This document shows positions 20,062 to 24,309 of a stretch of 64,000 nt of DNA, piece after piece; within the stretch, counting starts at the first letter, position 1, and every line of letters begins with the position of its first letter. The notes beneath the pieces were generated by a model. It was not told where the DNA came from. It did no database searches and worked only from the letters and a program-made list of their open reading frames with translations. Source of the DNA: Defluviitaleaceae bacterium (GTDB taxonomy: Bacteria; Bacillota; Clostridia; Lachnospirales; UBA5962); contig WRGD01000152.1 of assembly GCA_009787355.1 (NCBI GenBank), forward strand, positions 1 through 64,000, given 5' to 3'. Both the position numbers and the translations under genes were made by a program.

Positions 20062-20912
20062 TGGAAAAAAATTTTGAAAAATACAAAAACATAATCGATA
20101 AAAATTTAGAAAAATATGTAAATATAAAATCAGATAAACTCAAAGATTCTGTTATATACTCTTTAACTAGTGAAGGCAAAAGAATTAGAGGAATTTTACT
20201 TTTACTTGTGTTTGAGAGTATAACGAACAGTAGTGATTATAAAAATATTTTGCCATTTGCCGTATCGCTTGAAATGATTCATACTTATTCTTTAATACAT
20301 GATGATTTGCCGAGCATGGACAACGATGAATATAGAAGAGGAAAATCCTCTAATCATATTGTTTTTGGTGAAGATATAGCTATTTTGGCAGGAGATGCAC
20401 TTTTAAATTTGGCATATGAAAATATGGTAAATCACATATATAAATACCCTGCAAAACAAAATATAAAAGCTATGAGAATAATATCGAAAGCAGCAGGGCT
20501 TATGGTATCTGGTCAAGCACTCGACATTACACATAATACTTTAAATGTAGATGGAAAAATTCTTTTTGACATACAAAAATATAAGACAGCATATCTAATA
20601 CATTCAGCGTTATATACTGGTGCTATTCTTGCCACTAAAAACAAAAAAATCTTATCTGACTTTTATACCGCAGGGTTTTATATAGGTCTTTCTTTTCAAA
20701 TAAAAGATGATTATAATGATTATTTAGAGTATAAAAAATCTAGTAAAAAAACAAGTGATATAATAAACGACAAGGCAACTTATGTTTCTATTTTTGGCGA
20801 AAATAAAGCAAAGGAAGATATACAAATTTTGAAATCTAAAATTTTGATTATTTTTAACAAATATAATTTTAAAAATAATAATTTGAGTGATTTTGTTGAA
20901 TGGTTATTTTAG
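20061..20912 (+). CDS. ispA: Farnesyl/geranyl diphosphate synthase (polyprenyl synthetase)
   Basis: A 283-residue trans-prenyltransferase that condenses isopentenyl diphosphate with allylic diphosphates. The first aspartate-rich motif is DDLPSMDNDEYRRGKSSNH near residue 80. The second is FQIKDDYNDYLE near 212. GKRIRG near 40 binds substrate. Length is typical. The start is GTG, coupled to xseB. dxs, often next in other clostridia, is absent. Its 3' end (20889-20927, including bases past the stop) is repeated exactly at 24271-24309, which is evidence of a past rearrangement. Confidence 0.93.
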   Translation: MEKNFEKYKNIIDKNLEKYVNIKSDKLKDSVIYSLTSEGKRIRGILLLLVFESITNSSDYKNILPFAVSLEMIHTYSLIHDDLPSMDNDEYRRGKSSNHIVFGEDIAILAGDALLNLAYENMVNHIYKYPAKQNIKAMRIISKAAGLMVSGQALDITHNTLNVDGKILFDIQKYKTAYLIHSALYTGAILATKNKKILSDFYTAGFYIGLSFQIKDDYNDYLEYKKSSKKTSDIINDKATYVSIFGENKAKEDIQILKSKILIIFNKYNFKNNNLSDFVEWLF

Positions 20913-20927
20913 TTAAGGATATAATAA
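20889..20927 (+). repeat. Left copy of 39-bp direct repeat (end of ispA)
   Basis: Thirty-nine bases covering the last codons of ispA, its stop and 15 bases beyond are identical to 24271-24309. The right copy supplies the ribosome site of the gene at 24314. The sequence after ispA was therefore once joined directly to that gene. Confidence 0.9.
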
Positions 20928-20931
20928 CACA

Positions 20932-20971
20932 AAAACTCAACACCGTATTATATCTTAGGTGTTGGGTTTTG
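20932..20971. terminator. Bidirectional terminator between ispA and the peptide island
   Basis: Stem ACTCAACACC (about 20935-20944) pairs with GGTGTTGGGT (20958-20967) and is flanked by A and T runs on both sides. It can end transcription from both the nusB-ispA operon and the oppositely oriented island. Confidence 0.8.
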
Positions 20972-20989: not shown

Positions 20990-21358
20990 TTAGAATATTG
21001 GAGTTACTTTTATAATTCCATATCCCGGGTCTGATACTATAATTTTATTTTTGGTTATGCTGTGTATCACAATATAATGTTCTAATCTATTATCTACAAC
21101 AACATGAGCAATGCAGGGTAATGGAAAATGTAAATAAAAAGCCTCTTTAGTAACTTTTACAGCTTTTACTACAAATCCAAAAAATTCTAATGTTTTGATT
21201 ATATCTTTTGCAGTTGTGCCTTCTTTACTTATATTTGTTATTTCTCGTATTTTTGAAATATCAATATTTATACCATTTTGTTTTAATACTGTTGATATAC
21301 AAGCTATGGCACAGTCATTTTCATTTTCTTGTAATACGGTATGATATTTTTTAAACAT
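20990..21358 (-). CDS. Free-standing C39 double-glycine leader peptidase
   Basis: A 122-residue papain-fold C39 peptidase domain with no transporter part. QENENDCAIAC near residues 10-20 carries the catalytic cysteine (family form QxxxxDCGxAC, with Ala in place of Gly). HYIVIHSI near 94 carries the histidine, and VSDPGYG near 110 the aspartate. In most bacteriocin exporters this domain is the N-terminus of the ABC protein and cuts after a GG leader. Here it is separate. It stops slightly earlier than the usual 130-150 residues. It is the last gene of the island, one base after a permease gene, in a row with a GG-leader peptide 2.4 kb upstream. Confidence 0.85.
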   Translation of the reverse strand: MFKKYHTVLQENENDCAIACISTVLKQNGINIDISKIREITNISKEGTTAKDIIKTLEFFGFVVKAVKVTKEAFYLHFPLPCIAHVVVDNRLEHYIVIHSITKNKIIVSDPGYGIIKVTPIF

Positions 21359-21359
21359 A

Positions 21360-22073
21360 TTAAAAGTCCCTTTTGTTATAAATTTTCAATGATAAGAATA
21401 ATGATATTAAAAAAGGTATAGTTAAAAATAAAACAAATAATAATATTGTAATTATTATTTGTGTAACAAAGCTACTAACATTTAAAAATAACAATTCTAC
21501 AAAATTTATTAAACTATATAAAGGTACAGTAGAAATATCGTTTTCATTTGTAGGTCTAAGGGCGAAAATAACAATAAGCATTACAACAGAAGGTATTAAA
21601 GAATTTAATAACATTAACTTTTTAAATCCAAATTTAAAAAATAATGGAAATTCAATAATACTTATAATCATAGAAATAAAAGAAGCAAACATTGTTACAG
21701 CTACTATTTCTACTATACTTACACCATGGTTTAAAATATTTCTTACAATTACAGCAAACAAAAAGTATGTAATACTAGCTAAAATTGAAAATATAATTAA
21801 AAAAATATATCTACCAAAAACAATAGTTTTTCTTTCTATACAAAGCATTGCATATAACTTATCAAGTCCATTTTTATCACCAGCAGAAAAAGGAAGAGAA
21901 GCAAGTCTAGAACCTGTTGTAACAACTCCTATAGAAGCTCCCAAAATCCCCGCAAAATTATAACCCATTGCTAAAAACACCATAAAAACAATACCACCAA
22001 CAGCTACCACTCTTGGACTTATAGCAAAAAAATCTGACTTTATAAATCTAATTATCTTTTTCGTATTTGACAT
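21360..22073 (-). CDS. ABC-2-type permease, second island copy
   Basis: A 237-residue membrane protein with about six hydrophobic segments. It is a clear paralogue of the island's other permease (22953-23666): both begin with a short helix carrying IKSDF or IHSDF, then GGxxFxxxxxxxGY, and share KNGLDKLYAMLCIERKT or KNGLDRLYAMLCIERKT near residues 68-85. This fits ABC exporters built from one ATPase and two different permeases. Substrate cannot be read from sequence, but the neighbouring C39 peptidase and GG peptide suggest peptide export or immunity. Confidence 0.8.
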   Translation of the reverse strand: MSNTKKIIRFIKSDFFAISPRVVAVGGIVFMVFLAMGYNFAGILGASIGVVTTGSRLASLPFSAGDKNGLDKLYAMLCIERKTIVFGRYIFLIIFSILASITYFLFAVIVRNILNHGVSIVEIVAVTMFASFISMIISIIEFPLFFKFGFKKLMLLNSLIPSVVMLIVIFALRPTNENDISTVPLYSLINFVELLFLNVSSFVTQIIITILLFVLFLTIPFLISLFLSLKIYNKRDF

Positions 22074-22074
22074 A

Positions 22075-22923
22075 TTAAATCACCGTATTTTGTTCATTGT
22101 TAAAGCAAATTGCTAAATCACTCAAATTTGCGTTTGAAATATCTAGACCATTTGCAATTTTACTTAAATTTTCTTTGTGTATAATAGCTTTAAATCTATC
22201 CGAATATCGTTTAGAACCTATAATAATATTTAAAAAGTCGCCTGTTATTTTGTCTAAACTACCTTCAATATTCAAATAATTTGTAAGTAGTGATTCTTTA
22301 GTATCTGATATAACTATACTACCATTTGCAATATATGTAACATCATTCGCTATTTTTTCTATATCTTCTACTATATGTGTAGAAAACAATACACTACGTC
22401 CTCCTATTTTCACATAATCTAATAGTAAATTACATATCTCATCTCTTGCGGTTATATCTAACCCACTTGTTGGTTCGTCTAGTATTAATATTTTTGCATT
22501 GTGAGAGAGAGCAACAGCAAGCATTAGTTTTACACTCATACCACGGCTTAATTCTTTTACTTTTTTACTCTTGTCTATGCTAAATTGTTTTAATAAATTA
22601 TCAAAACGAGAGGCATCCCAATTTTCATGGTAAGGTTTTACAAATTTCTCAACTCCTGATACTTTCCAACGTTCTTCATATACTACAAAATCCATAACAG
22701 AACCTACATCAGAATTGATGTATTTTGTATCATTTCCAAAAAATTTTATAGTACCAGAATCGTATTTACTTATACCAAGTATAGATTTTAAAAGTGTTGT
22801 TTTTCCAGCACCATTTGGTCCTACAAAACCCATTATAGTATTTTTAGGAATTGTCATATTTATATTTTTTATACTGAAATTTTTGTATGATTTTGTTAAA
22901 TTAATTATTTCTAATGTGTTCAT
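22075..22923 (-). CDS. ABC transporter ATP-binding protein of the island
   Basis: A 282-residue ATPase. Walker A is GPNGAGKTT near residue 34, the signature is LSRGMSVKLMLAVAL near 128, Walker B is ILILDEPTSGLD near 150, and the switch histidine is STHIVEDIEKIA near 187. After the ATPase core there is a C-terminal extension of roughly 60 residues, as in YtrB/BcrA-like subunits. It lies between the two related permease genes, one base from the downstream one, so a heteromeric exporter is likely. Confidence 0.88.
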   Translation of the reverse strand: MNTLEIINLTKSYKNFSIKNINMTIPKNTIMGFVGPNGAGKTTLLKSILGISKYDSGTIKFFGNDTKYINSDVGSVMDFVVYEERWKVSGVEKFVKPYHENWDASRFDNLLKQFSIDKSKKVKELSRGMSVKLMLAVALSHNAKILILDEPTSGLDITARDEICNLLLDYVKIGGRSVLFSTHIVEDIEKIANDVTYIANGSIVISDTKESLLTNYLNIEGSLDKITGDFLNIIIGSKRYSDRFKAIIHKENLSKIANGLDISNANLSDLAICFNNEQNTVI

Positions 22924-22952
22924 AAAATTTCCTTTATAAAATTTTTAAATTT

Positions 22953-23666
22953 TCAAAAATCTTTATTGTTGTAAATTTTTAAGGATAATAGAAAAGATAA
23001 AATTAATGAAATAAGCCAGAACGTAATAAATATTAAGTCTGGTAATAAAATATTTATAAACAGTGTATTTTGATTATTTGTATATTCCAAAAAGTTTACA
23101 AATCTATATATAGGTGTTGGAGAGCTATCATCTATAGACCTAATAAAAAGCATTATAAATAGAACTAATAATGATGGTACTGCAGAAGTATATCGCTTTA
23201 GCTTATATCCTCCAAATTTAAAGCTTAATGGAAAGTGTAGTATATTTATTGTCGTTGATGCAAAAAAGCATACAAAGGTTATTATTGTTATTTCAATTGT
23301 ACTTACATCATAATTAAAAAGTTTTTGCATTATTGTAGCGAATAAAAAATATATTATGCTAGATATTAAAGACAATAAAACAAAAAAGGTATATCTACCT
23401 AAAACAACAGTTTTGCGTTCGATACATAACATTGCGTATAATCTATCTAAACCGTTTTTACCTTCTCCAGCTTCAAAAGCAATATTAGGTAAAGCAGCTC
23501 CTATATTTATTATGCCCATAGATACACCTAAAACGCCTCCAAAATAATATCCAAAAATGCTTACAATCATAACAAAAGCAAAAATACCACCTTTAAAAAA
23601 TAATTTTGGCATTACAGCTAAAAAATCAGAGTGTATAAATTTAATTAAATCTCGGCTATTTGTCAT
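22953..23666 (-). CDS. ABC-2-type permease, first island copy
   Basis: A 237-residue, six-segment integral membrane protein, same length as and homologous to the permease at 21360-22073. The conserved cytosolic block GLDRLYAMLCIERKTVVLGRY lies near residues 71-91 (here described by its key residues Y-A-M-L-C and E-R-K-T). It is the first transporter gene after the GG-leader peptide, separated from it by a 13-bp hairpin. A role in exporting the peptide or protecting the producer is inferred from context only. Confidence 0.8.
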   Translation of the reverse strand: MTNSRDLIKFIHSDFLAVMPKLFFKGGIFAFVMIVSIFGYYFGGVLGVSMGIINIGAALPNIAFEAGEGKNGLDRLYAMLCIERKTVVLGRYTFFVLLSLISSIIYFLFATIMQKLFNYDVSTIEITIITFVCFFASTTINILHFPLSFKFGGYKLKRYTSAVPSLLVLFIMLFIRSIDDSSPTPIYRFVNFLEYTNNQNTLFINILLPDLIFITFWLISLILSFLLSLKIYNNKDF

Positions 23667-23740
23667 TTTTAAACCACTTTTCTAATTTATTATCAAAATA
23701 TTTAATTACAAGTAAATGATAAAAAATATTTCAAAAGACA

Positions 23741-23780
23741 TTACCTTAAATACCTGATATATTTATAGTATTTAAGGTAA
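23741..23780 (-). terminator. Hairpin between peptide gene and transporter genes
   Basis: Perfect 13-bp arms TTACCTTAAATAC (23741-23753) and GTATTTAAGGTAA (23768-23780). On the minus strand only weak T runs follow. It lies 25 bases after the peptide stop, so it probably gives much peptide mRNA and limited read-through into the ABC genes, or protects the 3' end of the short transcript. Confidence 0.6.
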
Positions 23781-23805
23781 CATTTTTAGATTAAATTACG
23801 AAAAA

Positions 23806-23937
23806 CTACATAAGATTCCAAACGGTATAAAGAGCGTATGCAGCACAAACAGCTATGTCGAACCAACCACCTGTAATTTCTTCAGTTTCTGCTTCTGTCA
23901 ACTCTGTAAAACCGTCTAAATTTAATATATCTTCCAT
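23806..23937 (-). CDS. Double-glycine leader peptide, putative bacteriocin or signal precursor
   Basis: A 43-residue ORF. The leader ends LTEAETEEITGG, matching the double-glycine consensus with Leu at -12, Glu at -8, Ile at -4 and Gly-Gly at -2/-1. Predicted cleavage leaves the 19-residue hydrophobic product WFDIAVCAAYALYTVWNLM, with one cysteine and several aromatics. AAGGA lies about eight bases before the ATG. It has its own promoter at 24056-24084 and lies upstream, on the same strand, of an ABC exporter and a C39 peptidase, the enzyme class that cuts such leaders. I do not recognise the core peptide from any described bacteriocin. It could equally be a signalling peptide. Confidence 0.85.
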   Translation of the reverse strand: MEDILNLDGFTELTEAETEEITGGWFDIAVCAAYALYTVWNLM

Positions 23938-24055
23938 ATTTATTATCCTTGTCTGTATAAGATAAATTTTTTATTGCCAAATAACATTTACTATGTAATT
24001 TAGATTTAAAGTTTCGTTTTTCTTTCTTCATAAGTAAATATTAGTTGATAATTAC

Positions 24056-24084
24056 TTTATAACAAATAAAATTGCATTTTTCAA
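24056..24084 (-). promoter_or_regulatory. Sigma-A promoter of the GG-peptide gene
   Basis: On the minus strand, TTGAAA (24079-24084) and TATAAA (24056-24061) are separated by exactly 17 bases. The predicted transcript has an untranslated leader of roughly 110 bases before the peptide ATG, long enough for extra control. Confidence 0.6.
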
Positions 24085-24124: not shown

Positions 24125-24143
24125 TGCGTTGTACCTCAACGCA
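24125..24143. terminator. Short hairpin at the right edge of the island
   Basis: TGCGTTG (24125-24131) pairs with CAACGCA (24137-24143), followed by TATATTTT. It lies between the island promoter and the nusB scar and may be a weak terminator. Confidence 0.4.
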
Positions 24144-24258: not shown

Positions 24259-24309
24259 TTTAATTTAAATGATTTTGTTGAATGGTTATTTTAGTTAAGG
24301 ATATAATAA
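24259..24309 (+). repeat. Right copy of ispA 3' end (scar)
   Basis: Bases 24271-24309 are identical to 20889-20927 and the preceding dozen bases are similar to ispA. Together with the nusB fragment just before it, this is what remains of a duplicated nusB-xseA-xseB-ispA block whose middle was lost. It now provides AAGGA for the gene at 24314. Confidence 0.88.

Follow-up and report, generated by a model that had tools for sequence, protein, structure and literature searches.

A double-glycine peptide cassette with a detached, shortened C39 protein beside a Pmt-like ABC-2 exporter in a Defluviitaleaceae genome

PCATs use their peptidase for two tasks, cutting the leader of the substrate peptide and bringing that substrate to the channel. 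A locus in a Defluviitaleaceae bacterium, where a double-glycine (GG) leader peptide gene stands with a transporter and a separate C39 peptidase-family gene, raises the question of whether these two functions can be divided between proteins. The window analyzed is a 64,000-nucleotide stretch of contig WRGD01000152.1 (C152, 83.5 kb), part of a 2.25 Mb gut-type clostridial genome assembled in 152 contigs and estimated to be 96.5% complete.

Layout and genomic setting of the cassette

Reading 5' to 3' on the minus strand from 24084 to 20990, a promoter-like site is followed by a GG-leader peptide gene, a hairpin, a permease, an ATPase, a second permease and a separate C39 ORF. All of the parts named in the original prediction were recovered in this order on one strand and are listed below together with the flanking elements.

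24271-24309, plus strand: right copy of a 39-bp direct repeat, comprising the ispA 3' end, stop codon and Shine-Dalgarno region
24056-24084, minus strand: sigma-70-like promoter, TTGAAA (24084-24079), N17, TATAAA (24061-24056)
23806-23937, minus strand: 43-residue precursor, 24-residue GG leader and 19-residue core, with ribosome-binding site AAGGA upstream
23731-23790, minus strand: hairpin between the peptide and transporter genes (z = -4.2; 0 of 200 shuffles as good)
22953-23666, minus strand: permease A, 237 aa, ABC2_membrane_5 (PF13346; Pfam)
22075-22923, minus strand: ABC ATPase, 282 aa (ABC_tran 7e-27; Walker A, signature, Walker B and H-loop intact)
21360-22073, minus strand: permease B, 237 aa, ABC2_membrane_5 (Pfam)
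20990-21358, minus strand: free-standing C39 peptidase-family protein, 122 aa (Pfam C39 1.6e-31)
20930-20970, no strand assigned: terminator-like hairpin with U-run at the end of the cassette operon (z = -3.1)
20889-20927, plus strand: left copy of the repeat (39 bp, direct), which makes up the 3' end of the intact ispA

Each of the cassette genes has a ribosome-binding site or a near-overlap. The peptide gene had been credited with its own promoter, with -35 and -10 elements at 17-base spacing. This sequence is present, but AT-rich DNA such as this yields many promoter-like sites by chance (36 observed versus 27.7 +/- 5.2 expected) and the TTGAAA-N17-TATAAA site, being indistinguishable from many of them, is weak evidence for a promoter. 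A perfect 7-bp inverted repeat (TGCGTTG-TACCT-CAACGCA, 24125-24143) just upstream of it is a possible operator or terminator, and the hairpin at 23790-23731 is a candidate attenuator or mRNA 3'-end. There was no Rfam match between 20000 and 25000, PADLOC matches at the locus represented generic ABC ATPase similarity, and the cassette contained no separate immunity gene.

The ispA gene and a DUF212/PAP2 gene are adjacent, with gaps of 3-74 bp, in four other genomes (G006, G003, G002 and G005), G006 being a Defluviitaleaceae MAG of the same family. In the window they are separated by 3.38 kb in the opposite orientation, bounded by the two copies of the 39-bp repeat. The repeat is perfect, none is expected by chance and these are its only two copies in the genome; similarity goes on weakly for a further ~33 bp (in the right copy, to 24238). 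An assembly artefact was considered for the repeats and no sign of one was found in the assembled sequence. Comparison of gene order thus indicates that the cassette is an insertion. The flanking repeats are att-site-like and the arrangement resembles integration at a gene 3' end, yet no integrase, transposase or recombinase lies between them. G+C content is 25.6% in the cassette versus 26-27% in its neighbors, and composition gives no foreign mark.

The precursor peptide and its putative exporter

The precursor consists of a leader, MEDILNLDGFTELTEAETEEITGG, and a core, WFDIAVCAAYALYTVWNLM, with the predicted GG cleavage position between them. The leader carries Phe at -15, Leu at -12, Glu at -8, Ile at -4 and the terminal GG, matching the double-glycine pattern except at -7, where Thr replaces the usual hydrophobic residue, Leu. 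Against a weight matrix built from GG leaders of small ORFs beside PCAT genes in relatives, with the window left out, it scored 26.5 bits, compared with a best of 8.1 and a median of -2.8 for 60 order-2 shuffles of the whole window. The GG leader is real, far beyond chance, and the textbook leader originally described is confirmed with Thr at -7 as its one irregularity. Because related leaders vary at -7 too (6 of 16 also lack Leu, Met, Ile or Val, with A, Q, T and C occurring), this Thr is not by itself a defect. The leader is of the same family as those found beside PCATs whose C39 domains are up to 56% identical to the window C39.

The 19-residue core is hydrophobic (GRAVY 1.2), with a mass of 2251, a charge of about -1 and one Cys. 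It has no family match above cut-off in Pfam or NCBIfam, and no homologue of the peptide was found on plasmids. In its leader the precursor resembles class II bacteriocins and ComC/BlpC GG peptides, but the anionic hydrophobic core matches none of these and all scores fall under curated cut-offs: 13.2 versus 27.1 bits for Class II bacteriocin PF10439, and 18.5 versus 50 and 17.2 versus 70 bits for the ComC/BlpC pheromone models, which are the best leader matches (E 0.001-0.003). These pheromone matches and the length of the core would fit a signaling function in place of an antimicrobial one; this concerns only the role of the product and can be reconciled with the mechanism proposed below. 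However, there is no sensor kinase or response regulator in or beside the cassette, whose neighbors are housekeeping genes, and the core is hydrophobic rather than of the cationic CSP type; a signaling role is considered somewhat unlikely. The cassette was most likely acquired, and most likely serves a small secreted peptide of the GG class, be it antimicrobial or signal.

The two-permease ABC exporter of the original prediction was borne out, and its type can be specified. Permeases A and B are paralogues (44% identical) with ABC2_membrane_5 E-values of 4e-17 and 6e-14 (Pfam). The best NCBIfam model for the ATPase is PmtA (1.2e-62), at 211.7 bits against a cut-off of 350, and the predicted fold of permease B comes nearest to PmtCD among PDB structures, though the resemblance is weak (E 0.034, TM 0.5). 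One ATPase and two permeases are present, compared with two and two in PmtABCD. By its protein families the exporter is Pmt-like and of ABC-2 type, not PCAT-like, and by the curated PmtA cut-off it is not a member of PmtABCD. A PmtA-like ATPase, PF13346 permeases and a PmtCD-like fold are shared with PmtABCD and YtrAB-like GntR-ATPase-permease sets, and the presumed cargo, a small hydrophobic peptide, is a further likeness to Pmt. Unlike these sets, the cassette pairs a single ATPase with two permeases and lacks a GntR regulator; its cargo has a predicted removable GG leader, and it includes a peptidase gene. Relatives of the transporter, both class-wide and in Peptoniphilus, Anaerococcus and Ignavigranum loci, are mostly GntR-ATPase-single permease sets; no C39 or GG peptide stood beside them in the loci read, and no permease homologue was found on plasmids. 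This ABC-2 pump family is not known for GG peptides.

Pmt and lugdunin transporters both export, and protect against, membrane-active peptides (PMC7927808), and Pmt-type export with protection would suit a cassette without an immunity gene. The lack of such a gene is also consistent with the transporter being an immunity pump only, LanFEG/BcrAB-like, with export left to another exporter; the ATPase does resemble lantibiotic-protection ATPases (1.7e-36), and a C39-less exporter of ABC_membrane type lies beside an intact GG bacteriocin gene on contig C47 of the same genome. PmtA is, however, a far better model for the ATPase, Pmt pumps combine both activities and no other exporter is linked to the operon, and a pump confined to immunity is regarded as distinctly improbable.

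The detached C39 protein and a proposed mechanism

The free C39 peptidase domain that had been predicted is present as a separate ORF with its catalytic residues, but the domain is incomplete. The 122-residue protein scores 109.3 bits against a cut-off of 22 for Peptidase family C39 (PF03412) and retains Q10 (the oxyanion Gln), C16, H94 and D110, whilst the match covers profile positions 1-113 of 133, with no counterpart of the last helix and strand. It ends at TPIF, where PCATs go on with EFFKxWTGVLI, and no similar sequence was found beyond its stop codon. By alignment the missing stretch contains the equivalent of PCAT1 G135 (in the WTG strand), which packs against leader residue -4, and an L-7A change in the leader weakened binding to PCAT1 (PMC6959990). 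The excised C39 domain LahT150 is active in vitro (PMC6363468); no C39 domain known to be active at a length of 122 residues was found in the open literature. AlphaFold modeling, without the missing segment, gave a confident fold (pLDDT 88.4) similar to the PCAT1 C39 domain (TM 0.86, 2.0 A), with fold and active site seemingly intact and one section of the known leader-binding groove missing.

The nearest relatives of the protein are PCAT N-terminal domains (up to 56% identical), and in the C39 tree it is nested among PCATs with 98/98 support, on a branch of 0.88 versus a median of 0.12. Phylogeny shows it to derive from PCAT C39 domains. The Q-C-H-D set and the GG leader consensus are shared with PCAT/AMS exporters (ComA, PCAT1 and LahT); unlike these, the window C39 is not fused to a TMD and NBD, lacks the C-terminal strand and has an unrelated ABC-2 exporter as its partner, and no PCAT remainder is present in the cassette. 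The protein retains each of the eight positions that do not vary among 27 other C39 domains, including the four catalytic residues. Of the columns without variation in 20 close PCATs it keeps 25 and has lost 13, and the AGTD motif at 41-44 accounts for four of the losses. In simulations of substitution-only neutral drift to 70% identity, 18 of 500 runs were free of stop codons; because drift so rarely leaves the ORF open, it was probably under selection for most of the branch.

The ORF might instead be a remnant that is dead or on its way to decay, having arisen when the cassette edge captured a PCAT gene's 5' end and cut it short, in which case the peptide would be unprocessed or cut by an unassembled PCAT. 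Consistent with this, the reading frame stops within the C39 domain, at 62 bp from the left repeat and without the WTG strand, and its branch is long. N-terminal C39 relics of 70-100 aa lie beside GG peptides in four genomes (G471/L143, G713/L144, G741/L145 and G1116), an IS-truncated C39 of 124 aa occurs in G962/L154, and the genome that carries the cassette has another C39 relic on contig C47. Unlike such relics, the window C39 spans the whole catalytic set; it has diverged far and yet remains open, abuts permease B directly with an RBS-like AAAAGGG and has a terminator of its own behind it. The assembly contains no other intact C39 and no remaining PCAT, although a PCAT may lie within the unassembled 3.5%. 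On this evidence a remnant is judged unlikely.

The reading preferred here, about evenly balanced between right and wrong, is that the free C39 removes the leader and the Pmt-like pump then exports the core and protects the producer. The 43-residue precursor would be made in excess over the other cassette genes because the hairpin dampens read-through. The soluble C39 derived from a PCAT N-terminal domain would bind the leader and cut after GG in the cytosol, and the 19-residue hydrophobic core would partition into the inner leaflet. The complex of permease A, permease B and ATPase, a relative of phenol-soluble-modulin exporters, would take the core out and, since no immunity gene is present, would also protect the producer. 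Cleavage and export would thus be split between proteins, given the separate C39, the dedicated exporter and the lack of another intact C39. These features and the GG leader agree with the split originally proposed, in which the shortened C39 would be a putative peptidase. The notion of a self-contained working system found no firm support: the C39 lacks its C-terminal strand and has a long branch, there is no separate immunity gene and no second genome with the gene set was found in the searches described below. Also counting against the preferred reading are Thr at -7, occurrence in one genome only, the frequency of N-terminal C39 fragments as relics in GG loci and the absence of GG peptides from the transporter relatives.

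If the free C39 works together with an unrelated pump of the membrane-extraction kind, leader cutting and substrate recruitment would be shown to be separable, and nature would have supplied a test of how large a part of the C39 domain is required. Genome-mining rules would also widen, as tools seeking GG peptides beside PCATs miss such loci. The cassette is of interest mainly because it allows a test of whether GG cleavage and export can be separated, with its single occurrence and truncated C39 weighing against it.

Similar loci and other GG leaders

C39 searches covered 392 genomes of the order, 391 of the class and 398 of the phylum, and transporter neighborhoods were also read. No second genome with the cassette gene set was found in these genomes or neighborhoods, and the data contain no homologous locus in which transporter and C39 might persist without the peptide; conserved co-occurrence of peptide, C39 and both permeases, looked for in support of the original prediction, did not emerge. 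The unfused C39 ORFs that were inspected came from PCATs that had been split, frameshifted or truncated by an IS or had left a 5' relic, or were distant C39 proteins; none of these stood beside an ABC-2 transporter. Candidates for a free C39 in G326, G319, G605, G962 and a Lactococcus plasmid were rejected, being isolated fragments or PCATs broken by a split, a frameshift or an IS, and those in G1077/L157 and G1080/L156 are other, distant C39-type proteins. No free relatives were found by a single-protein pattern scan of genome contigs or by scans of viral contigs, a profile scan of the latter giving two weak C39 loci; C39 domains on plasmids and phages belonged mainly to PCATs, plus relics.

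No description of a C39 with a separate ABC-2 exporter was found in the open-access literature. Systems with leader protease and ABC exporter on separate polypeptides, as in the cassette, do exist (reviewed in PMC10885120); in the passages considered, C39 is described as part of PCATs and the separate cases involve other protease families. Split PCATs (G326/L050; G605/L141 and L142) likewise have C39 as a separate ORF, but their exporter part is a canonical PCAT TMD-NBD next door. Among the data searched, a detached and shortened C39 beside an ABC-2 pump, the shortened protein being a putative peptidase, was seen in this genome only. In L141 (6807-9040) and L142 (4655-6887), two copies in one complete genome, the PCAT is divided where C39 meets the TMD, giving two ORFs that overlap, and in the second copy the C39 is itself broken into two ORFs. 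N-terminal C39 relics between GG peptide genes recur in L143 (5738-11740), L144, L145 and L155, with a spacing in L143 of exactly 3001 bp.

The genome has four GG leaders in total, the three besides the cassette having been found by leader profile on contigs C117, C133 and C47. That on C117 (L052, 2960-3150), directly downstream of leuS, precedes a Gly-zipper core interrupted by an in-frame TAA. The C133 locus (L118, 7279-7473) encodes a bacteriocin-like GG precursor of 64 aa and lies some 210 bp short of the contig end, its partner genes being unassembled. On C47 (L117, 317-3850) there is an intact 79-aa class II bacteriocin GG precursor (Pfam 7.8e-8), together with two small ORFs, a decayed C39, broken pieces of an S41 peptidase and the C39-less ABC exporter, which has an RBS of its own; the decayed C39 reads KYHFVKQKDITDCEAAFLGTIAK, followed by stops and later HYVVIHKIT. 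A single soluble C39 could conceivably serve as an in-trans leader peptidase for several GG peptides, feeding the peptidase-less exporters (the Pmt-like pump and the C47 ABC exporter), and would then uncouple GG processing from PCAT transport, but we consider this quite unlikely. General decay of GG systems in this lineage is a possible alternative for the C47, C117 and C133 loci.
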